64,000 nucleotides of DNA, taken from assembly GCA_016342415.1 (NCBI GenBank), contig JAEIOD010000002.1, positions 124,001 to 188,000 of the forward strand, written 5' to 3'. Positions within the stretch are counted from its first letter, which is position 1. Each line of letters starts with the position of its first letter. A program made the translations under genes and the position numbers. This DNA is from Clostridiales bacterium. Lineage in GTDB: Bacteria; Bacillota; Clostridia; Peptostreptococcales; Acidaminobacteraceae. Of this stretch, positions 736 to 17,487 are shown in pieces. Below the pieces are notes generated by a model. The model was given only the letters and a program-made list of their open reading frames with translations. It was not told the DNA's origin and did not search any database.

Positions 736-850
736 TATCTTATAGCTTTATTCCTATTTTGTCAAGTTGCGTCCCTGTTTTTTTTATGTTAATTTTATGA
801 TTCACCTTACATCGTATATATAAACCTCATTTGAAGATATTCTGAAACTA

Positions 851-952
851 AAAAGAACCCCTAAGAAAACTTAGGAGTTCTAATATTTCTACACGTCATG
901 GAGGAGTCGCGTCCCCAAACGAACAGAATCAAAATATTCATCTGTAACTTCT
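851..952 (-). repeat. Decayed tRNA-Arg recombination module a (oldest copy)
   Basis: Read on the minus strand, this holds the shared ACGAACAGAATCA block (919-931 on plus), a badly mutated tRNA-Arg T-arm and acceptor copy (about 887-918), and the tRNA-type terminator hairpin (gaaccCCTAAG / CTTAGGagttc, 854-880). The TTCTATAAC arm is only weakly recognisable on its right (ATCTGTAACTTCT near 940-952). It matches copies at 9231, 11151 and 15473. Being farthest from the intact tRNA and among the most mutated fits the oldest insertion scar. Confidence 0.75.
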
Positions 953-1028
953 TTAATATGATACAGCAACTATTACTTTATAACATCCTTTAATACACAT
1001 CACTTGCTATTATAAAAGGCATATCAAT

Positions 1029-2369
1029 TTAATAATTCAACATCATAGCGTCAAATGCTGCTTTTATTTCTGCATAAGCTTCCTCAACAGACTTAGGTTT
1101 TACAGCACTCCAAGATAAAGCTGAGTTTTCCCATGTTCCCCAAACAGAACCCCACTCACTAAATAACGGTCTATTGGGTGCTGCTTCATATGATTCAAGT
1201 ACTGCCGCTACAATCTTTTTATCCGTTTCCGATAAATCCGAGTCAGCATACGTCTCTGCTGATACATGCTCAAGGATTTTTCCTGTTTTCTTAAATAAAT
1301 CTACAGCATATTCAGGGTTCACAATTTCTTCAATCATTGCAGAGGCCAAAGTCATTTGATCAGGATTTTCTTCAATTCTTGCATTCAAAGCAAGTCCCCA
1401 ACCGCTTTTCCAGTGTGTTAGTGGATTACCATTAATTGTTACTTGTGTAATAGGAAGAATCTCTAAATCCTCACCATTTCCAGCTTTCTCAGAAAGAGCG
1501 GCTGTACCCCATGGTCCATCAAGTCTAAGAGCATTTGTACCACCAGTAGCAAAAGCGCTATCCATGTATCCCCAAGTTGCATTTAGATCCCACACATCCG
1601 ATCCTAACTCATCATGAGCTTTCCAATAACTATATAAAGCCATTAAAGCAACTTGTTTCTCAGTACGAAGATCAGCCCATTCAGCGGTTAAATCAGAATA
1701 AAAACCCTCTTCATTTTTACCTAATAGTTCAATTTGCGCAGAATTAGTCAAAGCAATACCAAACCAAGCATTAAATGCCGGAATTAACATATCTTCAGGT
1801 CCCAATTCAGTAAACTCAATTGGCTGTGATAAATCCAATCCGATTGCATCAGCATTGGCTGTATTGGCAAATATAATTAACGTTTCAATATTCATTGGAA
1901 ATGCTAAATAATCACCATCAACTCTCAAATTACCACCCAACCCAGCATCATAGTTTCCGAAACCACCAACTGATTCAGCAATTTTCTTCGCATCAATTGA
2001 AGCAAGGACATTATTTTGAGCAAAGCCTGTTAATCTGTCAGCTGGAATAGCAAATAAATCTGCAACATCTGGATTTGTTACATCAGTTGTATCAATTACT
2101 TCCATATGTTCAAATGCTCCAGTTTCAATTAGATTGATTGTTGCATCCGGGTATTTTTCTAGTACTCTAGCTTTTGCAGATTCATAATATTCCATCCAGC
2201 CACTTTCAGTTTGAACCGAAATCGTTGCCTCAAGATTCGACATAACGTCCTCATTAGTAACACTGTCGCTTGAACTACTAATATTTTTAGCATTATTTGC
2301 AACATTACCACAAGCAGCCAATGACAACACCAAACCAAATACTAAAAGCATACTTAATAATCTTTTCAT
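1029..2369 (-). CDS. Family-1 solute-binding lipoprotein, MalE-like
   Basis: A 446-residue secreted lipoprotein: MKRLLSML, a hydrophobic core, then lipobox LSLAAC with the lipidated cysteine. The body has the maltodextrin-binding-protein pattern, including LRLDGPWGTAAL, HWKSGWGLALN and a C-terminal PNRPLFSEWGSVWGTWENS segment rich in aromatic residues for sugar stacking. A longer frame opens 33 bases upstream, but AGGAGGG sits just before the ATG at 2369, which decides the start. It should deliver maltodextrin-like sugars to an ABC permease; none is encoded nearby, but the GH13 amylase upstream on the same strand fits starch or maltodextrin use. The ligand is inferred, not shown. Confidence 0.82.
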   Translation of the reverse strand: MKRLLSMLLVFGLVLSLAACGNVANNAKNISSSSDSVTNEDVMSNLEATISVQTESGWMEYYESAKARVLEKYPDATINLIETGAFEHMEVIDTTDVTNPDVADLFAIPADRLTGFAQNNVLASIDAKKIAESVGGFGNYDAGLGGNLRVDGDYLAFPMNIETLIIFANTANADAIGLDLSQPIEFTELGPEDMLIPAFNAWFGIALTNSAQIELLGKNEEGFYSDLTAEWADLRTEKQVALMALYSYWKAHDELGSDVWDLNATWGYMDSAFATGGTNALRLDGPWGTAALSEKAGNGEDLEILPITQVTINGNPLTHWKSGWGLALNARIEENPDQMTLASAMIEEIVNPEYAVDLFKKTGKILEHVSAETYADSDLSETDKKIVAAVLESYEAAPNRPLFSEWGSVWGTWENSALSWSAVKPKSVEEAYAEIKAAFDAMMLNY

Positions 2370-2525
2370 CCTAATCCCTCCTACTGTAAATAAGTTATAC
2401 ACCTATTGTTTTTGCATGCAACTAACTAAAAACTTCTAAATTTATATATGCCTGTAGCTTTTGCATGATTTAATCAATAAACAACCTAAATCTGTTGTGA
2501 AGTCATTTATTGTGCAATCTATAAT

Positions 2526-2580
2526 AAATGTCAACTGCCTTTGCTGGAAACCCTTAGCCATAAAAGCAGTGGCATTTGTT
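2526..2580 (-). terminator. Imperfect hairpin after the amylase gene
   Basis: AAATG/CATTT and CTGC-TTT/AAA-GCAG form an interrupted stem beyond the amylase stop. The following T-run is weak, so this is a possible rather than firm terminator. Confidence 0.35.
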
Positions 2581-2609
2581 ATTAGTGTCATCAATACTAT
2601 CCAACTTTA

Positions 2610-4427
2610 TTAATAGTAATTTTTTAAGATGGTATTTCCGTTTAGCAAAACTAGAAAACTAAATGACTCTATTTCTACCAACTCATCTCTATCATTAAGG
2701 GAATATAAATGTTTCTCATGACTATTATTAATCAAAATGAGTAGTTCGTCATTGCCTTCAGTCTTTTTAATCAACAGACTATTTTTATCTTGATCAATCC
2801 ATTCTATACTATAATCCATACTTCTAAATACAACATGTTTATTTCTAAATGTAATCAACTCTTTTAAAAATTTATACAAGACATTTTCTCCTGTTAGTTC
2901 ATCGAAGACCATGCATCCTCTTGCAGATTCAAAATTACCTTCTAAACCGACTTCACTACCATATAGCAAACTCGGTGAACCCGGCATGATAAATTGAAGC
3001 AAATAAACAAGTAAGGCCTTTCTTTTATCTTTACCACATACTGTTAACACCCTTGCCGTATCATGCGAATCAACCATATTGAACATATAAGGTATGATAT
3101 TCTTAGGATAATTCACCATATACTTACCTAGTTGATAGGAAAATTTTTCTACACCGTATTTCTCACGTATATCTTGAACACCAATGAAATTTAAGATTAC
3201 ATTTAATAGCTCATAGTTCATCACACCATCAAACTGATCTCCAGCAACCCATGGATATGAGTTATCCCAATTTTCACCAATGATATAAGCATCAGGTTTT
3301 GATTTCTTAACAGCTTTTCTGAATTCTCTCCAAAAATCATGTGACACCTCATTGGATACATCTAATCTCCAACCATCAATGTCATATTTGTCAATCCAGT
3401 ATGTTCCAACACTAATAAGATGCTCTCTTGCAATTTGATTCGCTGTATTCCACTTTGGCATATAAGGGGCTGTTCCAAATATTCTATAATTTAATCCATT
3501 GATAACATCAATGCACGGCTCACTAAAAACTTCCTCTTCATCTTTTATATTAACTTCATCACCATTTATATAAAAGCAATCATAATATTCTGAGTCAATA
3601 CCCTTTTCAAGTACATCTTGCCAGAACGGATGATAATAACCACAATGATTGAATACACCATCTAGCATGACCTTTATGCCTCGTTGATGCGCTTCTTCTA
3701 CTAACATACCTAAAGTCTCATTATCTCCGAATGAAGGATCTATTTTGAAATAGTCTGTTGTGTCATACTTATGTGTTGAAGGCGATTCAAATATGGGGGT
3801 GAAATAGATACCTGTAACACCTAATTTTTGAATGTAATCTAATTTTTCTATAATACCATGGAGATTACCTCCAAACACCATACTATTATCTACTACTTTC
3901 TCTGTATCCCATTTCATTAAATTATTTAATTTTGGTCCATCTTCACTGCGATTAAACCTTTCAGGATAAATCTGATACCAAATAGATGATTCAACCCACT
4001 CTGGCGCACGATAAACATCTTCTATATTGATATAAGGAAAGTTAAAATAGTGACTTCCAATTTCTGAAATCTCATGATACTCATCTATGTTACATGTAAG
4101 ATAGGGTCCATAGAATAATTGTGTCTCCTTATTTTTTAATGTAAATGCATATCTAATTCTTAAAGTATTTATTTGATCTATTTCACAAAACCAGTAATCA
4201 TATAATTCATCGCTATGTTCTTTTGCCATTTCAATAAAATATCTTTTACTGGAATCAAAAGTCCACTCCCCTTTATCATTAGGCACATAACTATATGGAT
4301 CAAAAGCAATTACTTCCACTTGAGATAAATCATTCTTTGCACTTTTAAACCTGATATGAAGTGTCTTTTCATTATATGAGTATGCATATTTACTTTTAGG
4401 TTCATGATAAAACGCTTGTATATTCAC
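2610..4427 (-). CDS. GH13 neopullulanase/cyclomaltodextrinase-type glycosidase
   Basis: A 605-residue cytoplasmic enzyme without a signal peptide. Residues 1-130 form the N-domain of neopullulanases and cyclomaltodextrinases, followed by the TIM barrel from about 148 (SIWYQIYPERF). The four GH13 motifs are visible: MLDGVFNH (254-261), DGWRLDVSNE with nucleophile Asp356, IIGENW with acid/base Glu385, and VDSHDT with Asp456. It hydrolyses alpha-1,4 links in imported maltodextrins, cyclodextrins or pullulan; the subtype cannot be settled by reading. The start is GTG, with GGAG eight bases upstream. A TPR regulator lies upstream and a MalE-like lipoprotein downstream, suggesting a small maltodextrin locus. 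Confidence 0.88.
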   Translation of the reverse strand: MNIQAFYHEPKSKYAYSYNEKTLHIRFKSAKNDLSQVEVIAFDPYSYVPNDKGEWTFDSSKRYFIEMAKEHSDELYDYWFCEIDQINTLRIRYAFTLKNKETQLFYGPYLTCNIDEYHEISEIGSHYFNFPYINIEDVYRAPEWVESSIWYQIYPERFNRSEDGPKLNNLMKWDTEKVVDNSMVFGGNLHGIIEKLDYIQKLGVTGIYFTPIFESPSTHKYDTTDYFKIDPSFGDNETLGMLVEEAHQRGIKVMLDGVFNHCGYYHPFWQDVLEKGIDSEYYDCFYINGDEVNIKDEEEVFSEPCIDVINGLNYRIFGTAPYMPKWNTANQIAREHLISVGTYWIDKYDIDGWRLDVSNEVSHDFWREFRKAVKKSKPDAYIIGENWDNSYPWVAGDQFDGVMNYELLNVILNFIGVQDIREKYGVEKFSYQLGKYMVNYPKNIIPYMFNMVDSHDTARVLTVCGKDKRKALLVYLLQFIMPGSPSLLYGSEVGLEGNFESARGCMVFDELTGENVLYKFLKELITFRNKHVVFRSMDYSIEWIDQDKNSLLIKKTEGNDELLILINNSHEKHLYSLNDRDELVEIESFSFLVLLNGNTILKNYY

Positions 4428-4567
4428 TATTTATTCTCCGAAATCGTTTTCCTATTATATATAAAAAATAAACTCAGTAATTTGTTGAGTTTGAATTAAT
4501 ATCTCCTGATTAAATTATACGCTTGTTTCATCATGAAAATCTAGAGACTAGTTTTGTGAAACAAACT

Positions 4568-4594
4568 AAAAAAACAAGCCTTTAAGCTCGTTTT
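4568..4594 (-). terminator. Intrinsic terminator after the HTH-TPR regulator
   Basis: AAAACGAGC / GCTTGTTTT stem with an AT-rich loop, followed on the minus strand by a T-run, about 50 bases past the regulator stop. Confidence 0.7.
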
Positions 4595-4644
4595 CCTGCT
4601 AATTATGTGAAACTTATTTAAAAAAGCGTCTTTTAAGTTTAAAA

Positions 4645-5790
4645 CTACTCTACCTGTAATTTTTCAACCCGATAATCATCAATTTTCTTATACTTTCTCA
4701 TAGATCTATAAAGTTGGTTTCTTCTAAGTTCTAGATATTTTTCTTCTAACTTATGATACCTACCCGTTTGTTGTTGTGCTTCTAATCTATTTTCAATTAC
4801 CTCAAGATTATCATACCAAAAGGGATTCTCACCTTTTGATAAAGGATCAATAAGATCTTTTGAAATCTGCTTTAACAAAATAGATTCTTTTGAACATTTT
4901 GCTAAAACTTTTTGACCTCGATCAAGCTGACCATCTAGGATATAAGCCCATGCCAGATGGTTATATATATATGTTTCATAAGTCGGTTCTTTAATACGTC
5001 TGAACAATTTAGCACACTTTGTTAAATACTTAATTCCTGTGGCATATTGATTCTCATAAACAAAGATTTGACCTTTTATCATATTAACTGCAATCAGACC
5101 CATGATATTACCTTCTTCACTATATAGATTTTGAGCTTTATTGATATAATCCAATGCTAAAATCATATTTCCCCACTCAAAATACAATTTAGCAAGTTCA
5201 TGATGTACCTTGCCAGTAATCTTTTCAGTTTCTGCTTTTTTAAAGCATGTTTCAGCTGTCTTAAACTCTCTATCAACATCTCTTAAATCTATACCTTTAT
5301 AGAGCATATAAATGTGAAGTTGATCTGTATCCATGTAATCCAGAATTGAAACGAGTAGCCTATCAACTGCTGCAATTTCATCTCTCTGTTCACTATCTAC
5401 CAATCTAAGATACTTAACTAGTAGAAACTCAATAATAATCGGTGAGCACATCAGCTTTTTTTCATCTCTATTAATGGTTTCATATAACTCAGATGCAAGA
5501 CCAAGTTCCCCTTCTAGGAGTGCGTGGATATAATCATCAAAAAGTTGCTTGTTCTCTAATATAAATTCTGGGTCATCAAAGTATTCTAGGTTAAGTGCTT
5601 TAAAGATTTCATTAACAACTTCAATGCTTGGTATGATTTCTGCATTTTCTATTCTACTTAAATAAGATGGTACACATATACCTTCTACCAATGAAGTCTG
5701 ACTCATATTTTGAAGTAATCGATTAACTTTGATAATAGAACCAAGTAGTTTGGAATCATAAAATTTTCTATTCTCAAATTTCTTATCCAT
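4645..5790 (-). CDS. Helix-turn-helix regulator with TPR repeats (RRNPP/Rgg-PlcR type)
   Basis: Residues about 12-70 form an XRE-type helix-turn-helix (LLGSIIKVNRLLQNMSQTSL, then PSYLSRIENAEIIPS), and the rest, about 100-350, is helical repeats with TPR features (LAKLYFEWGNMILALDYINK, YNHLAWAYILDGQLDRGQKV). This architecture is that of regulators whose TPR domain senses a peptide or another small ligand. I start at the internal ATG at 5790, which has AAAGG upstream; the outer ATG at 5805 has none. It precedes the amylase gene on the same strand but a terminator separates them, so control of the amylase is a guess. No cognate peptide gene is visible next to it. Confidence 0.75.
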   Translation of the reverse strand: MDKKFENRKFYDSKLLGSIIKVNRLLQNMSQTSLVEGICVPSYLSRIENAEIIPSIEVVNEIFKALNLEYFDDPEFILENKQLFDDYIHALLEGELGLASELYETINRDEKKLMCSPIIIEFLLVKYLRLVDSEQRDEIAAVDRLLVSILDYMDTDQLHIYMLYKGIDLRDVDREFKTAETCFKKAETEKITGKVHHELAKLYFEWGNMILALDYINKAQNLYSEEGNIMGLIAVNMIKGQIFVYENQYATGIKYLTKCAKLFRRIKEPTYETYIYNHLAWAYILDGQLDRGQKVLAKCSKESILLKQISKDLIDPLSKGENPFWYDNLEVIENRLEAQQQTGRYHKLEEKYLELRRNQLYRSMRKYKKIDDYRVEKLQVE

Positions 5791-5931
5791 TATACAACCT
5801 TTCATTTTTTTTGCATATCAATATTTTATAGTGATTACAATACTCATTTGATTTATCATGATTTCATGAATAAAAACATATGCCTTCTTTATGAAAATAT
5901 CTATTTAATTTATATAACCAACATCTCAAAA

Positions 5932-6106
5932 ATAAGATCTTCCAAGTAAAGTTAGAGGTTCATGCTTTGATACACAGTGATGCACTCGCCCCTATGAACT
6001 GAATCTGTATTTCTATTATATAACTTTAAAACTACTAGACTATTGACCTATAAGTTCAATATAATTTGATATCCATCCATAACTTTGTCGGAAAAATGTT
6101 GTGAGA
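5932..6106 (-). repeat. Decayed tRNA-Arg recombination module b
   Basis: All parts of the module survive in mutated form and in order: terminator remnant (agatcttcc / ggttc, 5935-5962), tRNA 3' copy with TACACAGTGATGCACTCG and GAACTGAATCTG (5965-6007), TTCTATTATATAACTTT arm motifs, and a final CATAACTTTGTCGGAAAAATG (6079-6099) corresponding to CTATAACTTTGTTGGGAAAA in the good copies. It is clearly more decayed than modules c, d and e. Confidence 0.72.
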
Positions 6107-6318
6107 CTATTAAAGATAATTTCAATGACCAAATAAATAATGTAATCAATGAAATTATCAATATATAATGGCAATGAAACAGCTTCACTCACTCCTTATG
6201 ACTAGAATGTTTATCAGTGATAGATAAGTGACTATTTTCATTTTTTCATAACTCCACTTGTTCATAACCGGCACCATAAAATTTACGGCCCTTAAATTGA
6301 CACTTACAGATTTAATCC

Positions 6319-6343
6319 AAAAAGATCTGTTTCAACAGATTTT
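6319..6343 (-). terminator. Terminator downstream of the tRNA-Cys fragment and U32 gene
   Basis: AAAATCTGT / ACAGATcTTTTT hairpin, closely following the tRNA-Cys 3' fragment on the minus strand. It is either the old tRNA-Cys terminator carried along with the fragment or the terminator now used by the U32 gene. Confidence 0.65.
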
Positions 6344-6356
6344 CGGATACATGCTT

Positions 6357-6394
6357 TGGAGGTGACACCCAAATTCAAACTGGGATTTTCCTAC
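6357..6394 (-). pseudogene. Decayed 3' end of a tRNA-Cys gene
   Basis: On the minus strand the sequence reads CCCAGTTTGAATTTGGG, then TGTCACCTCCA. This is very close to the T-arm, acceptor 3' strand and CCA of bacterial tRNA-Cys (CCCAGTTCAAATCTGGG then TGTCGCCTCCA). The 5' half is absent. It abuts the U32 gene stop codon and is followed by a hairpin. It is best explained as a displaced tRNA 3' end left by a second integration event at a different tRNA gene. Confidence 0.65.
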
Positions 6395-8634: not shown

Positions 8635-8670
8635 TTTCCCTCTTTCCATAAGCATGTATTACTATCAACG

Positions 8671-8745
8671 TTAATTTTTTTCAGCTGGTTTTCCTAGTCT
8701 AGTTAAATCTTTCAGATTACTTTCAAGAAAATTAAAATTACTCAT
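8671..8745 (-). pseudogene. Truncated 24-codon gene start, HsdR-like N-terminus
   Basis: ATG at 8745 overlaps the stop of the preceding small ORF (TATGAGTAA), the arrangement of translationally coupled genes. The short product begins MSNFNFLESNLKDLTRLGKP, which resembles the N-terminus of many type I restriction HsdR subunits with a DUF4145-like start, then stops after 24 residues. I read it as the stump of a deleted restriction gene; the match is short and from memory. Confidence 0.3.
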
Positions 8746-8872
8746 AATACTGCCTATCCTTTCTTCTTTTTTTTATTGCACCTTCTGCAAGTCCTTTCGA
8801 ACATAATACCTGTACTCGTCTTTTAGAAATATCCCCGTTTTCTAGAGGATCTTTTGCATACATGAATTCCAT
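8738..8872 (-). CDS. Small 44-residue ORF with its own promoter, unidentified
   Basis: The frame reads MEFMYAKDPLENGDISKRRV and ends in a very basic tail (AIKKRRKDRQYYE). GGAG lies six bases before the ATG, and a near-consensus sigma-A promoter (8902-8930) sits just upstream, so expression is plausible. It overlaps the start of the next, truncated frame. I do not recognise the family; it could be a small regulator or the shortened remains of the first gene of a lost restriction operon. Confidence 0.4.
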   Translation of the reverse strand: MEFMYAKDPLENGDISKRRVQVLCSKGLAEGAIKKRRKDRQYYE

Positions 8873-8901
8873 ACGAGACTCCACTCAATAAGAATACCAC
8901 A

Positions 8902-8930
8902 ATTATATTCCTATGTGCGAATAATATCAA
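8902..8930 (-). promoter_or_regulatory. Sigma-A-type promoter for the 44-residue ORF
   Basis: TTGATA (8925-8930 on plus as TATCAA), a 17-base spacer, then TATAAT (8902-8907). The predicted leader is about 20 bases and leads to GGAG and ATG. The remaining sequence from 8931 to 9230 shows no gene that I can support. Confidence 0.65.
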
Positions 8931-9230
8931 CGAGTGTTTTTGAGATAGTACTGTAATTTCAATTTGTTCGGCAGCTATCATTATTTCTTTGTCTACAAAT
9001 AAAAAGTAATTGAAATTGATCTTGCTTGCTCATATGAACTTCTGAACTCTACTTATTTATCTCTTTACTCATTGTAGTAAGTTCTGATAAACTTTTATAT
9101 TTTCGATTCACAAAGAATTTTACTTCACTAATCAAAGTAATACAATTATCTAACGATAAAAACATCTCAAAATCAGATTCTATATCTTTCTATAAAATCG
9201 TTAAAAAACATCTGGAAGTTTCGAGGTATT

Positions 9231-9426
9231 AAAAGAACCCTTAGATATAATCTAGAAGTTCCAATATTTTTGACTCACTGTGAGGGATTCTAACCCCCGA
9301 CGAACAGAATCAGTAATTTTATTCTATAACGTTCTATAATTTCTATAAGGTTAAAAAAAACACGATTTTAAGTCTATAATTTCTATTTCCTCCGATATCA
9401 ATCTATAACTTTGTTGGGAAGTTTAT
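9231..9426 (-). repeat. tRNA-Arg recombination module c
   Basis: From right to left on plus (5' to 3' on minus): ATCTATAACTTTGTTGGGAA (9401-9420), a TTAAAA/TTTTAA hairpin (9351-9371), phased TTCTATAAC motifs (9322-9350), the invariant ACGAACAGAATCA block (9300-9312), the tRNA-Arg T-arm copy (TAACCCCCGA, GTGAGGGATTC), and the terminator hairpin (9235-9262). One of the two TGTTGGGAA repeats seen in d and e is missing. The AbiEii stop codon lies at the module's right edge. Confidence 0.85.
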
Positions 9427-10323
9427 TTACCGCTTGTATCTCTTATCAAGATGATTCCATCTCATATCAAAATATTTATCTTTCTCAATAGATTGAATCG
9501 GCTCCCTAACAAAAGCTACAATACCTTCCACGACTTCATTGAATGGCAATTCGATACCCAAGGTTTTCTTTGTGAAAACATTCCATCTTCTTATCATCTC
9601 ATAATTTTCATGTATTCTAGTTATTCTTTCTAAGTTCTCTATTGTACACTCTGTTTGTCTATTTCCGAAAGTTTCATAGATTGCTTCACTCAGAGTTTCG
9701 CCTTCAAAATCATATTGTGTCAAAAGGTAGTAAATATCATAATAATCCTTCATTCTGCTAGTCGCTTCCATACGACTAAACATTGCTTCTAGTTTTTCAG
9801 CAATGGTTGATTCAAGAGTATATGATTTGACACAAGGAGAATCAAAATTCTCTAATAGTGTTGGAATATTTATCGAGTCTATTTGAGGAATTACGACATC
9901 ACCAATTCCAATATCGATGTCAAATGGCGTCCTTGTATTTAAAATATTTGCTACAACCTTCACCCTTACACCAGGGTACTCTTTTTGCTCAGTAATTTTC
10001 TCAACTGATTTAATTTTAATGTCAATAAAACTGTTGTCTGTTTTTGTATTTATGATATCATCAATCATTACTCTCATTTCATTTATATCATTAGATATAT
10101 TATTTCCTAAAAAGTCAATATCCATTGTTGGTCTACCATCTAAATTATTAAATGCAAATAGAAATAAACCGCCTTTTAAGATCAAACTGCTTTTGCACTT
10201 TGAATATGACAATCTACGTAGGAATTCCTCCTGACAAAATAATTGTAACACAAATTGGTAAGACAACTTTTTCTTTCTTGATTCATTCTTTAACCTTTGT
10301 AAAATCGACTTCTCATCCATCAT
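9427..10323 (-). CDS. abiEii: AbiEii/AbiGii-family nucleotidyltransferase toxin
   Basis: A protein of about 298 residues with the nucleotidyltransferase core of the AbiEii toxin family: LILKGGLFLFAF then RPTMDIDFLG (the TxDxD metal site), and YTLESTIAEKLEAMFSRM followed by MKDYYDIYYL, the KD[FY]YD motif shared with AbiEii/MenT toxins. Family members block growth by modifying tRNA or other targets, giving abortive infection when the antitoxin fails. I place the start at the ATG whose first base is the last base of the AbiEi stop (TAATG), giving translational coupling; an outer GTG would add three residues. The stop codon touches module c, so the gene fills its cassette to the edge. Confidence 0.88.
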   Translation of the reverse strand: MMDEKSILQRLKNESRKKKLSYQFVLQLFCQEEFLRRLSYSKCKSSLILKGGLFLFAFNNLDGRPTMDIDFLGNNISNDINEMRVMIDDIINTKTDNSFIDIKIKSVEKITEQKEYPGVRVKVVANILNTRTPFDIDIGIGDVVIPQIDSINIPTLLENFDSPCVKSYTLESTIAEKLEAMFSRMEATSRMKDYYDIYYLLTQYDFEGETLSEAIYETFGNRQTECTIENLERITRIHENYEMIRRWNVFTKKTLGIELPFNEVVEGIVAFVREPIQSIEKDKYFDMRWNHLDKRYKR

Positions 10324-10919
10324 TACATCCACATCCCTATTATTCGATCTACTTTCTTTGCTATGTTCATAGTCTTAGCATAATCTAACAACTTACCTAT
10401 TCTCTTCTTAGGATCTCTCACATAAGCTAAAATAGCCTTATTAAAGATTTCCTTGTCCATTTTATTTTCATAACGGATTACATCACATATTGTTCTATCT
10501 CTGTCAAATATCGATATTAAATGTCCTTCATATTCAGCTGTGCTTCTGCCAAGTTCTATGTATGCATCTATCAAGAAGTAAAATTTTACGAATGGATAAT
10601 CAATCTTATACTTGGACTTAGAATTGTTCTTACTAACTGCAATATGCCATGTATTTGGAACTCTATCAGAATACCCATAGATGTATAAAGCTGATTCCAA
10701 GCAAACAACTCCTTCTGAATACAGTTTGTTTATTATAGCAGCTTCAGATACAGGTAAATCATCAATCCATTCATAGTATCCAGATTTAATCTTTCCAACA
10801 TAACCTAACTCCATCAATTTATTTAAAGTCGTATTATGATATCCTTGAGAAGTAAAATCAGACAGTTTGATGACTCCTCCATGTTTATCAAAAATTTTTT
10901 TATACTTATCTATATCCAT
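10323..10919 (-). CDS. abiEi: AbiEi-type antitoxin/transcriptional repressor
   Basis: A 198-residue protein directly upstream of abiEii with a 1-base overlap. Residues 1-60 form the winged-helix domain (MDIDKYKKIFDKHGGVIKLS, YHNTTLNKLMELGYVGKIKS), followed by the AbiEi core (CLESALYIYGYSDRVPNTWH) and a C-terminal half containing DRDRTICDVIRYENKMDKE, typical of the AbiEi_4 group. In studied pairs this protein both neutralises the toxin and represses the operon through inverted repeats. GAGGAG lies before the start. The pair is a complete type IV toxin-antitoxin phage-defence unit and the sole cargo of its cassette. Confidence 0.88.
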   Translation of the reverse strand: MDIDKYKKIFDKHGGVIKLSDFTSQGYHNTTLNKLMELGYVGKIKSGYYEWIDDLPVSEAAIINKLYSEGVVCLESALYIYGYSDRVPNTWHIAVSKNNSKSKYKIDYPFVKFYFLIDAYIELGRSTAEYEGHLISIFDRDRTICDVIRYENKMDKEIFNKAILAYVRDPKKRIGKLLDYAKTMNIAKKVDRIIGMWM

Positions 10920-10993
10920 GTGAATATCTCCTCTTTCAAATTCTTAAGCGAACCTAATTACATGATACACTATATATACCAATCTGCATAGTG

Positions 10994-11029
10994 AAAAGTC
11001 CTCTTTGGGATTCTAAGGAGGACTTTTTA
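10994..11029. terminator. Strong hairpin upstream of the AbiE pair
   Basis: AAAAGTCCTC and GAGGACTTTT form a perfect 10-bp stem around a 14-base loop, with a T-run on the plus side. No plus-strand gene precedes it. It may be the terminator of a lost gene between here and module d, or a regulatory palindrome of the abiE operon. I see no other feature in 11030-11150. Confidence 0.5.
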
Positions 11030-11150
11030 ACGCAGTCGTATTATTAATGATCTTATGAATACAACACATATAGCCAAAATCTTTTTCAAAAGGATTTCTC
11101 TACAATAGTTGGGGATGTCAGTATAAAATAGGCGCATTAGATAAAAAAAC

Positions 11151-11356
11151 AAGAACCCCTAGATATCATCTAGGAGTTCCAATACTTCTGGTACGCCGTG
11201 AGGGACCAGGGGCCCCGACGAACAGAATCAGTAATTCTATTCTATAACCTTCTATAATTTCTGTATGGTCTGAAAAAACACGATTTTCAGCCTATAACTT
11301 CTGTATCATCCAATAACAATCTATAACTTTGTTGGGAAAATGTTGGGAAGTTTTTA
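11151..11356 (-). repeat. tRNA-Arg recombination module d
   Basis: It has the same order as module c: ATCTATAACTTTGTTGGGAA (11319-11338) followed by a second TGTTGGGAA, a CTGAAAA/TTTTCAG hairpin (11270-11290), phased TTCTATAAC motifs on both sides, ACGAACAGAATCA (11218-11230), a tRNA T-arm copy partly scrambled to GGGACCAGGGGCCCC, and the CCTAGAT/ATCTAGG terminator hairpin. The TOTE gene stops five bases from its right edge. Confidence 0.87.
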
Positions 11357-11361
11357 CGATC

Positions 11362-14169
11362 TTATTCAATATAAAGTCGTTCCTTTCCTCCAACTATTTC
11401 TTCTGCTGAATCAGATAGCACACGTATTATATGATCATTTTCCTTCGAATATCCTAGTGGATCAATCCCTCCGTACCATAATATCTTATTATCAATAGAA
11501 ACAAATTTATGACAAACATCTGAATAGATAACAACAACACCTGCAGCATGGAGTTCGTCTAATAATATACTCTTCTTATTCCTTTTAGTTACTAGAATAA
11601 TCTTTATACCATTATTAAATTTATCTGCAATAAGCGATTTGATTGATTCTAACTTTTTGTTATCAAATTGGTAGCTTCCAATAATGATACGTTCTGATGA
11701 TTGGTTAATATCATTCAATACCAGTTCAAAGTAATCTTCTATACTGTAAATACCTTCTTGATCAATCGATTCATCACTGGAAAGTAGTGAATATCCAATC
11801 GACTTATAAGCACTTAATCGTTTATGATACATTCTTTCTAATCTCAGAACATGTATATCAATATAGTCATATATTCTAACATCATGCTTTCCATCAAATT
11901 CTCTATGAAGTCGACCAGCATATTGAGCGACAATTCCTTTCCAAGAAATTGGCATAGTAAGAAATAAAGTATCTAGTTTAGCTTCATCAAAGCCTTCACC
12001 AATTAGTTTCCCTGTTGCCAGTAACACAAATGGTTCTTCTTCAATATTCCTCAATGTTTCAAGAGCTTTCTTTCTATCACTGTTCTTCATAGTGCCCACC
12101 AAAACGATTACTGTTAGATGACATTCTTCCAAGAGTTCTTTCAGCAACATCAAGTGTGAAGTTCTTTCACTAAGTACAATCGGTTTCCGTCCTTCTCCAA
12201 CTGCATCTTTAATGTCCTTCACAATTAACTTGTTCCGTGATTTATTTTCACATACATTCTTATATAACTCACTTATATGTAGGTCCTTTTCATTCACATC
12301 TAGTGGTAATCTTAGATTAGTGAATCTTGGAATAAGATAGTGTTCAAAAGTCCTTTGTTGAGCCATTTCTTTTGCATCAACTCTATAACGAATCGGACCA
12401 CACTGCATGAAAATAATTGGATGATGACCATCCTTTCGAATTGGGGTAGCAGTTAAGCCATAAACATACTTTGCCTTAGACTCAAATAACACATTGGAAA
12501 AACTTATTGATGGTACATGATGACATTCATCAACTAGGACCATACCATAATCATTAATTAGCTCTCTGATATTCTTATCTTTATCCATCATCGATTGCAT
12601 TAAAGCTATATCGACACGACCTGTTAATCGATTTTTACCTGCACCTAATTGCCCAATCATAATAGGTTTTCTTTTTCTACCTGTTTTCGTCTTTTGATTT
12701 TCAATCATTTCCATTTCTAAGAAAGTCTCTAACCTTTCTATCCACTGCAGGGCCAGTTCTTTAGTGTGAACAATGATTAAAGTTGGAACTTTCTTCTCAG
12801 CAATTAAACTTGCACCAACGACAGTCTTTCCGAAACCAGTTGTAGCTGACAATACGCCATTATCATTCTGTGATAATAGGTCTAATGCAATCTGTTGTTG
12901 TAATCGCAATTCACCTTTAAATTCAACATTAAACTCATTTCCGGTTATTCTTTCATCAATTAATTTATATTGTATTTTATACTCTTTAAGTAATGCTTTC
13001 AGGTCTTCAATCAAACCTCTAGGTATTGTTATTGTTTCCTTTGTTTCTTGATAGTTTTCTACAACACGACTTATGTTATAAGTTGACATACGCATCGCCT
13101 GCATCGAAAAAAATTCAGGATTATTATAAGATGCAAGCTTCCTTATCTTATATAATGCTTTAGAGGTCATTTGATCTTTAAATAAGGTAACACCTCTATC
13201 AAAAATTATCTTTAATGGTTGCGTAAAATCAGAATCACCGATATTCCAATGATGTACTTTTTCTTCTCTGTAATCACTATTACAACTCTCAAATTCTTTG
13301 AATTGTAGATTCATCTCTCTCACGACTTCAATATTTATTCTTTTAATACTCGAAAGATATTCCCATTGATCATCATAGGGAATTAATTCCTTATTAACGA
13401 AAATACTTTTGCCTTCTGATCTAGGCTGTTTCTGAAGAGGCAATGCAATCAGATTTCCGAAACCTTCTTTTTCAACAAAATCTTGACTGGGAAATAAACG
13501 GTCGTATGAATTGAAAGTTATAAAATCACTCTTTTGCATGGTATAATCTAAAATAGCAAATCCAAACTTCCTAGCTTCTGATGCTCTGATGATTTTATCA
13601 AAGAAGAACCAAAGGTGAGCTCCATTACCAGAACGTGAAATCTCAATTGAGTAATCAATTTCTAGCTCCTCACACGACTCTACAACCTGAACAACTTCTT
13701 CTTTCCAGTTCTTCTTATCAAAATCCATTACCAAAAGCTTGCACAAGTCTTGTTCCATCAATGGATACAAGCCTAATGTAACGTTTCCCTTAAGGTGACT
13801 CTCAATAACTTTATAGTTTAAACCAACGAAATTCTTTGTTTTGCACACTTTACATTTTACTCTAGGTTTTTCGCATACACCTGATTGCCACTCATTCATA
13901 CAATATGGAGAATAGCCAGTTTTACCATTGTTACTTTCCCATCTCTTAGCTACGACATTTGTACGCCCTACAAATAAAGATTTGAATAACTCCACTTTCT
14001 TCTGAGATGTGCTTTTAATATTAATAACCGATTCCGAAGACGACTGCTCTTTTACAGACGAACTTATTGCCTCTTCATAGACAATTCCATTTTTCTTGAG
14101 TAATTTCTTTAGCCGAATATTTTCATCTAACAATTGCTCATATTTTTTATTGAGTTCTTCATATTTCAT
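11362..14169 (-). CDS. TOTE-type conflict protein: AEP primase, SF2 helicase, PLD-like nuclease
   Basis: A 935-residue multidomain defence protein. Residues 1-25 are a coiled coil. The archaeo-eukaryotic primase domain (about 60-300) has a Zn-type CEKPRVKCKVC cluster (99-109), MDFD with metal-binding Asp149 and Asp151, and GAHLWFF with His185. The superfamily 2 helicase (about 420-790) has TTGFGKT (443-449), DECH (547-550), TATP (573-576) and QYAGRLHR. The C-terminus (about 840-930) is a PLD-fold domain with CHKFVSID and WYGGIDPLGYS. This order matches the Pfam AEP-TOTE family of mobile-element-linked conflict systems. GGGGAGG precedes the start. It has its own promoter and shares a cassette with an AbiF-like gene. 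The molecular target is unknown. Confidence 0.85.
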   Translation of the reverse strand: MKYEELNKKYEQLLDENIRLKKLLKKNGIVYEEAISSSVKEQSSSESVINIKSTSQKKVELFKSLFVGRTNVVAKRWESNNGKTGYSPYCMNEWQSGVCEKPRVKCKVCKTKNFVGLNYKVIESHLKGNVTLGLYPLMEQDLCKLLVMDFDKKNWKEEVVQVVESCEELEIDYSIEISRSGNGAHLWFFFDKIIRASEARKFGFAILDYTMQKSDFITFNSYDRLFPSQDFVEKEGFGNLIALPLQKQPRSEGKSIFVNKELIPYDDQWEYLSSIKRINIEVVREMNLQFKEFESCNSDYREEKVHHWNIGDSDFTQPLKIIFDRGVTLFKDQMTSKALYKIRKLASYNNPEFFSMQAMRMSTYNISRVVENYQETKETITIPRGLIEDLKALLKEYKIQYKLIDERITGNEFNVEFKGELRLQQQIALDLLSQNDNGVLSATTGFGKTVVGASLIAEKKVPTLIIVHTKELALQWIERLETFLEMEMIENQKTKTGRKRKPIMIGQLGAGKNRLTGRVDIALMQSMMDKDKNIRELINDYGMVLVDECHHVPSISFSNVLFESKAKYVYGLTATPIRKDGHHPIIFMQCGPIRYRVDAKEMAQQRTFEHYLIPRFTNLRLPLDVNEKDLHISELYKNVCENKSRNKLIVKDIKDAVGEGRKPIVLSERTSHLMLLKELLEECHLTVIVLVGTMKNSDRKKALETLRNIEEEPFVLLATGKLIGEGFDEAKLDTLFLTMPISWKGIVAQYAGRLHREFDGKHDVRIYDYIDIHVLRLERMYHKRLSAYKSIGYSLLSSDESIDQEGIYSIEDYFELVLNDINQSSERIIIGSYQFDNKKLESIKSLIADKFNNGIKIILVTKRNKKSILLDELHAAGVVVIYSDVCHKFVSIDNKILWYGGIDPLGYSKENDHIIRVLSDSAEEIVGGKERLYIE

Positions 14170-14190
14170 TTATAGCCACCTCCCCATTCA

Positions 14191-14219
14191 ATTATATAAT
14201 AAGGAATCTGAGTATTCAA
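14191..14219 (-). promoter_or_regulatory. Sigma-A-type promoter for the TOTE gene
   Basis: TTGAAT (plus 14214-14219), a 17-base spacer, TATAAT (plus 14191-14196), then a short leader to GGGGAGG and ATG at 14169. Confidence 0.75.
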
Positions 14220-14224
14220 AAACA

Positions 14225-14256
14225 AAAAAAATCTAAGTGACAGACTTAGATTTTTA
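14225..14256 (-). terminator. Intrinsic terminator between the AbiF-like and TOTE genes
   Basis: AAATCTAAGT / ACTTAGATTT stem with loop CTGTC and a T-run on the minus strand, ending transcription from the AbiF-like gene before the TOTE promoter. Confidence 0.8.
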
Positions 14257-14299
14257 TAAGCTATTCAATTATTTTCATACAATATACAATCGATATAAA

Positions 14300-15157
14300 T
14301 CAAGACTCGAGTATTTCTTTCCAATTCTGAGGAAAACCCATTCTCGATAACTCAATAATAGTTTCATTCTCCTCAACTAAACTAGACAAATCATTACAAA
14401 TTCTATCCCATTGGTTTGGATTTAAAAGTAATGATTTTAATGCAATCAGAACAGCAAATAACGATTTGTTATTAATATTATTGCTTCTCATTATATGATC
14501 CTTCTTCATCTTAAAAATGAAATATGTATTATAAATCCTTGAATGATGTGCGCATCGATTTCTAACGTTCGAAATTGATCTTAACCAACTTTCTAAGATT
14601 TCATAACTTAAACCAAAATAATCTCTAGCAATCTTCTTCTTATCAACCGTCTTCATATTCTCATATAGATGAGAAACTGTTCCAAAGCTAAGAAATTCTA
14701 TGCCTGCCCATATCGGTATTTTCCCATACTTTTCTTTATTATGCTTAATGTACAGAACCTTTTTTTCCATACGTTTCTGCTCTTTTAAAAATTTATCCAG
14801 AAAAAAAACATGTCGCTCAGCATCATCAAATGCATCAAAACTCCAATGACCAATTGGAGATATTTCTCTAGCTATATAATATGCAATTTTGGTTTTTATT
14901 GATACTTCAACAGTTTCAATCAAGTCCATCAACATGCTACTTATTCTCTTATCAAAAATATACAAAGCATAAATATCTTCAAATGAAATTCCATCTTGAA
15001 AAATATCTTTCTCACGAAAATGTAGCGAATATCCTGACATCTTATAATAGTTGACACGACTAAGAATATCCAATGCATTTTCACGATCACCGCATTTTAG
15101 TCCGCGTTCAATTAATAAGTTTAATTGCTCTTCAAAAGATAGTGCAGGTTTCATCAT
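14300..15157 (-). CDS. AbiD/AbiF-family (Abi_2) HEPN RNase-type abortive infection protein
   Basis: A 285-residue protein of the Abi_2 family. SRVNYYKMSGYSLHF near residue 35 is the family's N-terminal mark, and NVRNRCAHHSRIYN near residue 205 supplies the HEPN RNase motif (R, four residues, then H). HEPN proteins of this group cleave RNA and cause growth arrest on phage attack; from memory, AbiF relatives have been reported as partners of small RNA antitoxins and as relatives of Cas13. GGAGG five bases before the ATG at 15157 decides the start; a longer frame has no site. It carries its own promoter and a structured leader and shares the cassette with the TOTE gene. Confidence 0.83.
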   Translation of the reverse strand: MMKPALSFEEQLNLLIERGLKCGDRENALDILSRVNYYKMSGYSLHFREKDIFQDGISFEDIYALYIFDKRISSMLMDLIETVEVSIKTKIAYYIAREISPIGHWSFDAFDDAERHVFFLDKFLKEQKRMEKKVLYIKHNKEKYGKIPIWAGIEFLSFGTVSHLYENMKTVDKKKIARDYFGLSYEILESWLRSISNVRNRCAHHSRIYNTYFIFKMKKDHIMRSNNINNKSLFAVLIALKSLLLNPNQWDRICNDLSSLVEENETIIELSRMGFPQNWKEILES

Positions 15158-15222
15158 TATATCCTCCAAAAAAAAATGACTCCCCATGGTCCGCATAGTT
15201 TAGAGGCGTGGCGAGTGCTGTT
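15158..15222 (-). ncRNA. Structured leader of the AbiF-like gene, candidate small RNA
   Basis: From the predicted start near 15222 the RNA can fold ACTCGCC with GGGGAGT around an inner CGC/GCG stem, and this is followed by nine consecutive T residues just before the GGAGG site. This looks like an intrinsic terminator, so much of the transcription may end as a ~60-base RNA. Whether it is an antitoxin RNA, an attenuator or chance is open. Confidence 0.3.
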
Positions 15223-15228
15223 AACTAA

Positions 15229-15257
15229 ATAATACAGTATATCTGCAGAATAGTCAA
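15229..15257 (-). promoter_or_regulatory. Sigma-A-type promoter for the AbiF-like gene
   Basis: TTGACT (plus 15252-15257), a 17-base spacer and TATTAT (plus 15229-15234). The stretch from 15258 to 15472 contains no gene I can support. Confidence 0.75.
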
Positions 15258-15472
15258 CCTATTTACATTTTTTCCCTCTCACTGTCACTCAAGTTTCTAT
15301 TAGTCCTTTCTAAGCAAAGCGAATGCGGTAGTCGGGGGTACATTAATGCAAAAGCTGACTCCAGCACTTGAAAACAAAGCCTTCTTCATTCATTTATAAT
15401 ATCATATTTTGATTTTACCAGCATCTTCCCAACTCAGAAATGAATGAAAACACATGAAATCACTCAAAATCA

Positions 15473-15677
15473 AAAGAACCCCTAGATACAATCTAGGAGT
15501 TCCAATACTTCTGGCACACCGTGAGGGACTCGAACCCCCGACGAACAGAATCAGCTATTCTTTTCTATAACGTTCTATATTTTCTATAACAGTTGAAAAA
15601 ACAAGGTTTTCATTCTATAACTTCTGTATAAACAGATATCAATCTATAACTTTGTTGGGAAAATGTTGGGAAGTTTT
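15473..15677 (-). repeat. tRNA-Arg recombination module e (best preserved)
   Basis: The tRNA part GGCACACCGTGAGGGACTCG with AACCCCCGAC is almost identical to the intact gene; the terminator CCTAGAT/ATCTAGG is intact; ACGAACAGAATCA is at 15541-15553; phased TTCTATAAC motifs, a TGAAAA/TTTTCA hairpin (15594-15612), ATCTATAACTTTGTTGGGAA (15642-15661) and both TGTTGGGAA repeats are present. It is the scar nearest the intact tRNA, as expected for the newest complete insertion. Confidence 0.88.
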
Positions 15678-15858
15678 CTTTTAAACTAAATAAGACACCC
15701 AAAGAAAGTTCATTTGTGAGAGGAGCATAATTTGTCATATGTGATACTGTATTATACATCACCAACTGTGTTTTTTTGTTTAAATATTTTGCATCACTTA
15801 ATTGGAATGTAGAATCAACTTTTTTTACTCACTTTATGAACAAACATAAATGGACCTC

Positions 15859-17109
15859 TTAATATTTTATTTCATTCAGACTATCATTGATATCTAGTGT
15901 CCAAATATACGGATGGCCTTTTTTAAATAATATTTTAAATACTTGTCTTACATCATTATTGGGATATTCAATCTTATCTACATAATATTCAATCGATTTA
16001 TAACCAGTATAAATGGGTGTGAAAATATTACTATGAATACTTATTTCAATTCCAGAATCATCTGTTACTTCAATTATTCCATCTTTAATTGATAAAGTCG
16101 CTTTGTCGTTTTCTGTAACAATATTATAACAGCCATTTAGATCACGATATATCGATTGTTTAAGTCGTTCATTTAATAAGTCTAAGATCCCAACCAATGC
16201 CTTCTTTAAATCCAAGATCTTATACATTTCTCCCCAGGTACCCTCAAATAGCTCACTATTGCAACTGAATGTTGCACCCTTCTTATATACATATTGTGCG
16301 AAAGTATTATTTAGTGGTGATCTTATACCAATTTCGGTCATATCACTGCCCATTATTTCATTATAAAGTACTGAACAGAAACTCTCTGATGCTGTATTGT
16401 TTAATACTGCAACTTCTTTTATTACTATCATATTTTTCTCAGTTTTCAGCCAAGCATAACCACAAAGATCATCTTCATCATATATACCATACCAATTGGA
16501 TCCTTTTTCGATAGTTTTTTCTTCTATCATATATCTAAGATACTCAACACTTCTTAACTCCGATCCAAAGTTTTCACTACTTGCATGCGTAAATATATTA
16601 ATCATTTTTGATAAGATGTCGTCGCTAAATACATCAATTATTTTAGTTGAGTATTCACTCTTACAATTTTTAAGTTTTTCCTTATTAAGGTTTACATAAT
16701 TATAGAAATAAGCTGGTACAGAATACTCAAATCCAAATTGTTGATAGAAATTTGGAATCCCAATCAGTCGGCATAAAAATATATTGTCTTTCTTCATTGC
16801 TTCAAATGAATATTCCATGAGTTCTCTGCAATATCCTTTACCCCTAAACTCAGGATGAGTACCTACAATATCGTATTCTCCAACTTGAAACAGTGTCTTT
16901 CCTACCTTATGATTTTTCTTTGTGAGTACTAACGAACTTACAATTTGCTCATTTTCTTCTATATAAAAACAATCCTCTTCAACTTTAGAAAATGGATTAC
17001 GAAACATTAATTTATCAAGTTCATCTTCGAGATGTTCATTATCAAAAACAAGCTTATTGAGTGATAAATATCGTCCTTTGTCCTCATGTCTTAAATGCTT
17101 TACTCTCAT
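15859..17109 (-). CDS. Eis-like GNAT N-acetyltransferase
   Basis: A 416-residue cytoplasmic protein with the Eis plan of tandem GNAT folds and an SCP2-like tail. The first GNAT domain shows the acetyl-CoA loop VGTHPEFRGKGYCRELM (about residues 83-99) and IGIPNFYQQFGFEYS; a second, weaker GNAT fold runs to about 290; the last 120 residues (LLNERLKQSIYRDLNG onward) resemble the sterol-carrier-like domain that closes the Eis family. Such enzymes acetylate amines, including aminoglycosides, but the substrate here is unknown. It is the only cargo of the segment next to the intact tRNA-Arg. AGAGG precedes the ATG at moderate distance. Confidence 0.78.
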   Translation of the reverse strand: MRVKHLRHEDKGRYLSLNKLVFDNEHLEDELDKLMFRNPFSKVEEDCFYIEENEQIVSSLVLTKKNHKVGKTLFQVGEYDIVGTHPEFRGKGYCRELMEYSFEAMKKDNIFLCRLIGIPNFYQQFGFEYSVPAYFYNYVNLNKEKLKNCKSEYSTKIIDVFSDDILSKMINIFTHASSENFGSELRSVEYLRYMIEEKTIEKGSNWYGIYDEDDLCGYAWLKTEKNMIVIKEVAVLNNTASESFCSVLYNEIMGSDMTEIGIRSPLNNTFAQYVYKKGATFSCNSELFEGTWGEMYKILDLKKALVGILDLLNERLKQSIYRDLNGCYNIVTENDKATLSIKDGIIEVTDDSGIEISIHSNIFTPIYTGYKSIEYYVDKIEYPNNDVRQVFKILFKKGHPYIWTLDINDSLNEIKY

Positions 17110-17270
17110 AATACTACGCCTCTTCTATTTGATTGGGATAACTAAATTCTTCAACTTTTGTTTTTGTCTCTAATTCATCATAGTTGCGAAGATTTCATCT
17201 AGTGAAACATACCTTCATCAAAATATTACTACATAATTTATTTATCTTAATATTAAATAATAATTACATA

Positions 17271-17350
17271 TCCCCATTAATCAGAATTTCTATAACGCCT
17301 TATAATTTCTATATCGTCTGATATAATTGTTGGGAAAGATCGGGGAATTA
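17271..17350 (-). repeat. Arm-only remnant of the recombination module (f)
   Basis: TCAGAATTTCTATAACG, TTATAATTTCTATA and ATTGTTGGGAAAGAT follow in module order, and TCCCCATTAATCAG stands where the tRNA block should be. The tRNA 3' copy and terminator are missing. It lies directly beyond the terminator of the intact tRNA, so it may be the end of the newest element or an internally deleted copy. Confidence 0.6.
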
Positions 17351-17361
17351 CAATATCTATT

Positions 17362-17402
17362 GATAAAAAAATAAGAACCCCTAAGTAAAACTTAGGAGTT
17401 CC
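17362..17402 (-). terminator. Terminator of the tRNA-Arg gene
   Basis: GAACTCCTAAG / CTTAGGGGTTC stem followed by TTATTTTTTT on the minus strand. The same hairpin, with compensating stem changes, closes every copy of the recombination module. Confidence 0.85.
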
Positions 17403-17410
17403 AATGCTTC

Positions 17411-17487
17411 TGGCACACCGTAAGGGATTCGAACCCCCGACCATCAGATTCGAAGTCTGCCACTCTATCCAGCTGAGCTAACGGTGC
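17411..17487 (-). tRNA. tRNA-Arg (anticodon TCG)
   Basis: A 77-base cloverleaf with encoded CCA: acceptor GCACCGT/ACGGTGT, D-arm GCTC/GAGT, anticodon loop CTTCGAA (TCG, reads CGA/CGG), T-arm GGGGG-TTCGAAT-CCCTT, discriminator G. The outermost anticodon-stem pair is G-A rather than Watson-Crick. The region from the anticodon stem to the 3' end is the sequence copied in the array modules, so this gene is the integration target. It is still intact because each insertion restores the 3' end. Confidence 0.95.

Follow-up and report, generated by a model that had tools for sequence, protein, structure and literature searches.

A tRNA-Arg-anchored array of att-flanked cassettes without a recognised recombinase gene, likely stacked by an integrase encoded elsewhere

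How might a run of short gene segments come to be stacked at the 3′ end of a tRNA gene when no segment carries a recognised recombinase gene? The question is raised by the window analysed here (the whole stretch of 64,000 nucleotides under study), in which displaced copies of a tRNA-Arg 3′ half separate genes that include predicted defence functions. A sequence-only reading had taken this region for an integron-like cassette array filled by a recombinase encoded elsewhere, an interpretation that our analysis, overall, partly supports. Islands that are flanked by att sites and lack a recombinase are already known, in the cases described by our sources mostly beside an integrative and conjugative or mobilizable element (ICE or IME). 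Minimal cassettes that stand in a row and share a long att site across genera would show how defence genes can spread singly, with no element of their own, and the shared att offers a precise sequence for tracing the missing integrase. In the open-licence PMC literature, no paper on this array was found among the matches listed.

Anatomy of the array

The tRNA-anchored repeat array in the window is real. ARAGORN and Rfam both call one intact tRNA-Arg(TCG) at its head, as the sequence-only reading had proposed, and a 212-nt direct-repeat family stands at 9225–9436, 11143–11354 and 15466–15677 (77–100% identity to the reference copy at 11143). The 87-nt family of core plus terminator adds the tRNA end (17365–17451; 84%) and a distal place (844–930; 61%), both measured against the copy at 15466. 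A whole-genome search of the window's own genome, G000 (5.4 Mb, 83 contigs; E ≤ 0.001), recovered the repeat family at these five places alone. Read along the minus strand (Table 1), the tRNA 3′ half and terminator are followed by a P′ arm, the GNAT gene and a P arm; then come m3, the AbiD and TOTE genes, a P arm and m2; then AbiEi and AbiEii, a P arm, m1, the U32 gene and a P arm; and last a decayed core, an HTH/TPR gene, an amylase gene, a lipoprotein gene and the distal core.

Table 1. Features of the array, listed in minus-strand order from the tRNA outwards. 'In the model' marks copies from which the arm model was built.
Feature	Position	Strand	Basis
Intact tRNA-Arg(TCG), array anchor	17411..17487	-	ARAGORN and Rfam
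Core and terminator of the putatively newest cassette, equal to the tRNA 3′ half	17365..17451	-	Repeat search, identity table
P′ arm, TATAGAA-repeat type	17280..17373	-	83.8 bits (copy is in the model)
Cargo 1: GNAT acetyltransferase (Acetyltransf_9), 416 aa	15859..17109	-	Pfam
P arm, cassette 1	15553..15677	-	124.5 bits (copy is in the model)
Displaced tRNA 3′ half and terminator, m3	15466..15552	-	Repeat search, identity table
Second P′ arm type, GTTGGGAA repeats, adjoining m3	15413..15465	-	Aligned with G002 and G011 sites
Cargo 2a: Abi_2 / AbiD protein, 298 aa	14300..15196	-	Pfam, PADLOC
Cargo 2b: TOTE protein (AEP primase and helicase), 935 aa	11362..14169	-	Pfam, PADLOC
P arm, cassette 2	11230..11354	-	125 bits (copy is in the model)
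Displaced core and terminator, m2; T-loop letters altered to CCCTGGT	11143..11229	-	
Cargo 3a: AbiEi, 198 aa	10323..10919	-	PADLOC; no Pfam match
Cargo 3b: AbiEii, 301 aa	9427..10332	-	Pfam, PADLOC
P arm, cassette 3	9312..9436	-	104.7 bits (copy is in the model)
Displaced core and terminator, m1	9225..9311	-	Repeat search
Decayed P′ arm beside m1	9166..9236	-	40.1 bits (copy is in the model)
Cargo 4: U32 peptidase-family protein, 754 aa	6391..8655	-	Pfam
Decayed P arm, cassette 4	5995..6104	-	R1 45.5 bits, E 4.8e-13 (not in the model)
Very decayed core, m0	5917..6002	-	Placed by adjoining arm
Segment 5: lipoprotein gene, amylase, HTH/TPR gene	931..5916	-	Pfam, ORF list
Distal decayed core and terminator	844..930	-	No arm recognised by R1

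Besides the intact copy there are thus five displaced copies, three well kept and the two furthest from the tRNA strongly decayed. At least five had been counted before, with the same arm at every copy, but the arm of about 125 bp is joined to only four of the five. The arm of cassette 4 was absent from that first list and was detected by R1, a P-arm sequence model built from seven copies that do not include it. R1 scores drop with distance from the tRNA (124.5, 125, 104.7 and 45.5 bits, the first three copies being in the model). The distal core agrees with the core query at 30 of 51 positions, where 20 shuffles gave no more than 27, and the genome search assigns it E 2.9e-7; the m0 core does not rise above chance in the same shuffle scan, and its position is assigned because the decayed arm adjoins it.

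Cargo genes

Several cassettes carry predicted anti-phage genes, and the four segments with GNAT, AbiD plus TOTE, AbiE and U32 contain no recombinase gene. In the nine minus-strand array ORFs of at least 80 aa, Pfam reveals neither an integrase nor a relaxase nor a phage gene, and PF00589 has no match within the window; tRNA anchoring and stacked segments lacking a recombinase gene, both claimed earlier, stand. So do the names given to AbiEi/AbiEii, Abi_2/AbiD, TOTE and GNAT, each by Pfam or PADLOC, but the label 'Eis-like' for the last comes from one match, to Acetyltransf_9, the NCBIfam search giving none. That all cargo shares a strand is true but uninformative, as 27 of the 28 ORFs of at least 150 aa in the 21–64 kb part of the window are on the minus strand too, and strand bias was rejected as evidence. 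The proposed layout of cargo plus downstream site is supported, with spacing that varies: across eight cassettes of three genomes AbiEii overlaps the P arm, and the stop codon lies 7 nt from it for TOTE, 11 for a kinase in G011, 43 for Fic, 95 for a radical-SAM protein, 124 for a methyltransferase, 181 for GNAT but 286 for U32.

The outermost segment (931–5916) may be ordinary native chromosome; its genes also stand together on contig C69 of the congener G002. Its lipoprotein gene (1029–2402) has no Pfam match and by eye resembles a solute-binding protein, and a 70% identical paralogue lies about 5 kb further out (L038:16457–17818). Upstream of AbiEi a hairpin-like leader (10980–11035), perhaps an attenuator, is partly kept in the AbiE cassette of G011.

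Different cassettes in related genomes

The 212-nt module has matches in 22 of 41 genomes (E ≤ 0.001), strong ones (E below 1e-20) only in G000, G001, G002 and G011. The strong match in G001 covers the tRNA end only; in the other 18 genomes no match is longer than 66 bases, and many fall in the tRNA part. The sequence-only reading had looked to copies of the module elsewhere and to turnover of cargo; beyond the five places in G000, modules were found in G002 and in another genus (G011), relatives hold different cargo, and in none of three other genomes, each of another species, does the same cargo recur in the same order with no copies elsewhere.

In G002, of the same genus as the window, the start of contig C45 is collinear over about 16 kb with the DNA left of the window (67–77% identity), after which come other genes, a core (a), a Fic gene, a second core (b) and a HigA-like/M78 gene. 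The tRNA-Arg is on contig C47 together with its opposite flank, which is 71% identical to the window; an overlap between the ends of the two contigs was sought and none found. Because C45 has one flank and C47 the tRNA and the other flank, the G002 array probably spans both, at the same locus as in the window. C47 also carries a long mobile-looking stretch (L100, L101, L034) with a tyrosine integrase, resolvases and a ParA-like ATPase, and a DNA methylase gene near the tRNA. The tRNA locus is present in the congener G001 as well (74%), with no P and no P′ match by either arm model. Since G002 holds Fic and HigA-like genes and G001 no cassettes, the cargo is unlike between congeners. A GNAT gene 89% identical to that of the window stands in G001 (C144, L095:5599–7023) away from the tRNA-Arg and armless by either model; the match stops at window position 17286, where the P′ arm has its outer edge. 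The U32 gene is 87% identical in DNA to that of G003, against 74–76% to the congeners; horizontal transfer was set aside, as the tree does not reject a single genus clade (AU p 0.389), and a weak R1 match near the G003 gene falls in coding DNA.

The modules of G011 lie on contigs C21 and C23, with a lone P′ arm on C6. The G011 tRNA-Arg(TCG) (L145:7662–7738) differs in sequence, lacks such a terminator and has no adjoining cassette. Over 76 columns the three G011 array cores are 77–95% identical to tRNA ends of the window's genus and 51–55% to G011's own tRNA-Arg(TCG), and the exact anticodon arm of the window's genus is absent from G011. Because these cores resemble tRNA ends of the window's genus and not those of their host, the att sites in G011 are likely imported. 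Their cassettes carry AbiE; a two-component system with a multicopper oxidase and an Fe-S protein; LytTR and methyltransferase genes; and a sulfatase with a radical-SAM protein.

The AbiE unit of G011 is 81% (1103 bases) and 85% (407 bases) identical to that of the window, the match reaching the outer edge of the P arm, and its upstream neighbour is unlike the window's; about 97 bases of the G011 AbiEii are missing in the alignment and the contig ends soon after. Other AbiE-like matches of at least 100 bases reach 64–77%, among the matches listed. As yardsticks, G000 and G011 are 66% identical over 622 bases beside the tRNA and 80% in U32, so that the AbiE identity is high yet within the range of the best-conserved genes. 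The terminator at the G011 AbiE copy is unlike the window's, so that core and cargo cannot simply have moved as one piece. On C6 (L096:2840–5103) the terminator of the lone P′ arm is cut, and a large serine recombinase is encoded about 700 nt away (3631–5103).

The tRNA end and the attachment site

Identities among tRNA ends and cores, taken over 76 columns, place the window's tRNA end at 95% to the core on G011 C23, 87% to m3, 84% to the tRNA end of G002 and 79% to that of G001. The tRNA 3′ half and terminator in the window are closer to a G011 cassette end than to the congeners' tRNA ends. With the displaced core m3, the intact tRNA end of G002 shares 97% identity and that of G001 89%. The tRNA 3′ end in the window looks swapped, as would be expected had the GNAT cassette integrated at the tRNA, and such an end would be a readable record of the latest insertion.

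At the junction of arm and core lie two 10-bp half-sites with a 5-bp spacer. Their dyad is matched at 8 of 10 positions in four of the six well-kept type-a sites, and at 7 and 6 in the other two; a score of 8 is reached at 0.12% of window positions. Elsewhere the dyad scores 5 and 3 in the two decayed sites, 3 at G002_b (the site of core b), 2 at G011_C21a and 1–2 in three tRNAs. Seven junction bases occupy the place of the anticodon loop and, in type-a sites, differ from the letters of the tRNA. The anticodon loop of a tRNA is a frequent place of cleavage by tyrosine integrases, and some of these enzymes, such as those of Tn916 and CTnDOT, accept overlaps that do not match. The overlap and crossover would, we infer, lie at this junction; the crossover may instead fall in the T-loop.

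Two sites join parts of unlike affinity. The arm of G002_b is 52–58% identical to six other arms and its core 75–91%; it is the weakest accepted arm (R1 24.5 bits), and because this score is close to those of chance matches, its acceptance rests on the core, which is 95% identical to m3 over 76 columns. The arm of the G011 C21 site is m3-like in 15 of 21 decided columns, and beyond the junction, T-loop included, 6 of 10 are m2-like and 4 m3-like, with differing terminators, which hints weakly at a mosaic. The T-loop CCCTGGT recurs in three cores of two genera (window 11143–11229, L036:1391–1472 and L036:6239–6325). Such cores should not give a working tRNA end, and perhaps entered at displaced sites instead of at the tRNA.

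Search for a helper recombinase

A tyrosine recombinase whose attP holds these arms, which the sequence-only reading expected, was sought at PF00589 places and with R1 in 393 genomes of the order and 391 of the class, and none was found. The R1 arm occurs in G000, G002 and G011, that is in 3 of the 393 genomes of the order, and never beside an integrase in these 393. Further R1 matches in G052 (20 bits, among 41 family genomes) and in G411, G466 and G745 (21–22 bits, among the 391 class genomes) were judged chance, since they fall in coding or intergenic DNA and the 3 kb fetched contained no tRNA gene. A weak match of the second model, R2, in G024 was also taken for chance; it falls within an ORF. 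Four genomes hold 51 PF00589 places; one arm motif gave single scattered matches in 5 of the 30 places fetched, and R1 run over the four whole genomes hit array places only. Of the three PF00589 places of G011, one has an integrase at a tmRNA and one an Xer-sized protein (283 aa), while at the third (L050) the view covered the flank; a 385-aa integrase of G002 is armless and lies about 37 kb from its tRNA.

Among viral contigs the three exact arm patterns and the core pattern gave no match, and a 20-bp pattern gave three, none with the window's module. Plasmids gave no arm match; the single match among phages spans 31 bp and concerns the tRNA part, and the arm search of genome contigs gave one record. 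An IMG/VR contig (L114:10800–10922) has a tRNA-3′-end-like sequence with a terminator, followed by the outer-P-arm TTCCCAACATTTTCCCAACA repeat; ARAGORN calls no intact tRNA there.

How the array may have formed

We consider it likely, with a probability of roughly 0.72, that a predicted tyrosine integrase, with its gene outside the array, stacked short cassettes one upon another at the tRNA-Arg(TCG) 3′ end, cassettes that share long att ends and have no recognised recombinase gene; the array would then likely consist of integrase-less, att-flanked cassettes, similar to cis-mobilizable elements (CIMEs) and inserted in trans. Each unit, in the direction of the tRNA, would comprise a tRNA 3′ half with terminator, a P′ arm, cargo and a P arm. 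On insertion at the tRNA the newcomer's copy would replace the tRNA 3′ half and terminator, and the old tRNA end, now preceded by the newcomer's P arm, would be shifted downstream. A passing ICE, prophage or plasmid would supply the integrase in trans; that it is a tyrosine integrase is suggested by the paired arms, the repeated arm motifs and the imperfect dyad that stands where the tRNA has its anticodon loop. This reading draws on the repeated anatomy, the outward weakening of the arms and a tRNA end closer to a foreign cassette than to the congeners' ends, all observed at the sequence level, and on the different cassettes of relatives and an AbiE unit with unlike neighbours in two genera. 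Supply in trans, the order of insertion and present mobility are inferred. Cassettes in relatives support mobility, and since they pair other cargo with like ends, it is likely that the stack acquires and exchanges genes by means of an integrase whose gene lies elsewhere. Weighing against this reading are the absence of any recombinase with these arms from our searches, the occurrence of the arms in three genomes only, the lower dyad scores of the remaining sites, the unlike terminator at the G011 AbiE copy, the U32 tree and the possibly native segment 931–5916.

The array could also be a tandem of larger ICEs, IMEs or prophages decayed to cargo and att ends, as in classical CIMEs, with nothing that moves single cassettes. 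Tandem CIMEs with the most decayed units furthest from the target gene have been described (in the part of PMC7563491 used here), the window shows the same order, and genes for an integrase, resolvases and a ParA-like protein do occur over a long stretch of the G002 tRNA contig. Against this, no ICE or phage remnant is found among the nine scanned ORFs of the array, the cargo of several cassettes, from three genomes, directly abuts the arm, and the AbiE unit stands alone in another genus; we regard this origin as rather unlikely. Homologous recombination between modules of about 200 bp, shuffling cassettes after site-specific integration confined to the distant past, gains something from the length and similarity of the modules (77–100% to the reference) and from the conversion-like mixture of informative columns right of the core on G011 C21. 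By itself, however, it offers no route for modules into G011 loci that lack the host's matching tRNA, and it leaves the change of arm type at the core of G002_b unexplained, which makes it quite improbable. A true integron-type array lacking its integrase, with attC sites between the genes, would share the layout of gene plus downstream site and the want of an integrase. Conserved pairing is, however, confined to the tRNA-derived core and terminator, the six arm strands fold with z of −0.3 to −2.6, and the core has tRNA identity. The attC-like fold was rejected, by that test an integron in the strict sense is not supported, and we give this explanation scarcely any credence.

Going beyond stacking by an outside integrase, a more tentative and so far doubtful extension is that the array belongs to a tRNA-derived counterpart of integrons. 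A pool of cassettes of one to few genes would then share a portable two-armed site made from a borrowed tRNA end and its terminator, and an overlap-tolerant helper integrase would insert them at the tRNA, at earlier cassettes or at far sites in other genera, so that defence genes might be exchanged one cassette at a time.

Comparison with known systems

Several systems share parts of this anatomy, and the likenesses drawn here hold for the portions of the cited papers that we used. Integron cassette arrays without an integrase (CALIN) depend on a helper (PMC11389934), and the array likewise consists of gene-plus-site units that would need an enzyme in trans, but its att is tRNA-derived and two-armed, with no conserved single-strand attC hairpin. 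Tycheposons are tRNA-anchored cargo elements with a tyrosine recombinase of their own (in the section concerned of PMC10872708); the window shares the anchor, whereas no such gene was found in its units by Pfam or PF00589. The additive flexible genomic islands of Methylophilaceae, as far as the same source describes them, have recurring 20-nt tRNA-Lys ends and content that varies between strains. The window similarly has recurring tRNA 3′ ends beside variable content, here between species of one genus; long arms or a terminator are not described for those islands in that account, whereas the att module of the window can be traced between genera.

The ssrA islands of Dehalococcoides, in the account drawn from PMC3146451, stand in tandem downstream of an RNA gene, split by displaced 3′ ends, 15 of them with no integration module. 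The array is built in the same way, but a serine recombinase (DsiB) is present on 16 of those islands, which have a 20-bp repeat, whereas the window has a core of about 87 nt and two arms, and our searches found no helper. CIMEs, on which our preferred reading is modelled, are described in the relevant passages of PMC7563491 as att-flanked cargo of 1.2–13 kb that lacks genes for recombination or transfer and forms tandems where a target gene has its 3′ end. A CIME is expected to move once an ICE or IME has accreted into one of its sites. The array is also att-flanked, tandem and most decayed furthest out: cores and arms resembling attL and attR lie on both sides of cassettes 1–4 and decay outwards, and Pfam shows no recombination or conjugation gene among the nine minus-strand ORFs. 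If the array arose from an ICE or IME by deletion, these ORFs show no remnant of it. CIMEs in that source mostly form pairs or triples with an ICE or IME, whereas the window has four or five units and no such element, and its att module, unlike those of the CIMEs described there, also occurs away from the tRNA in another genus.
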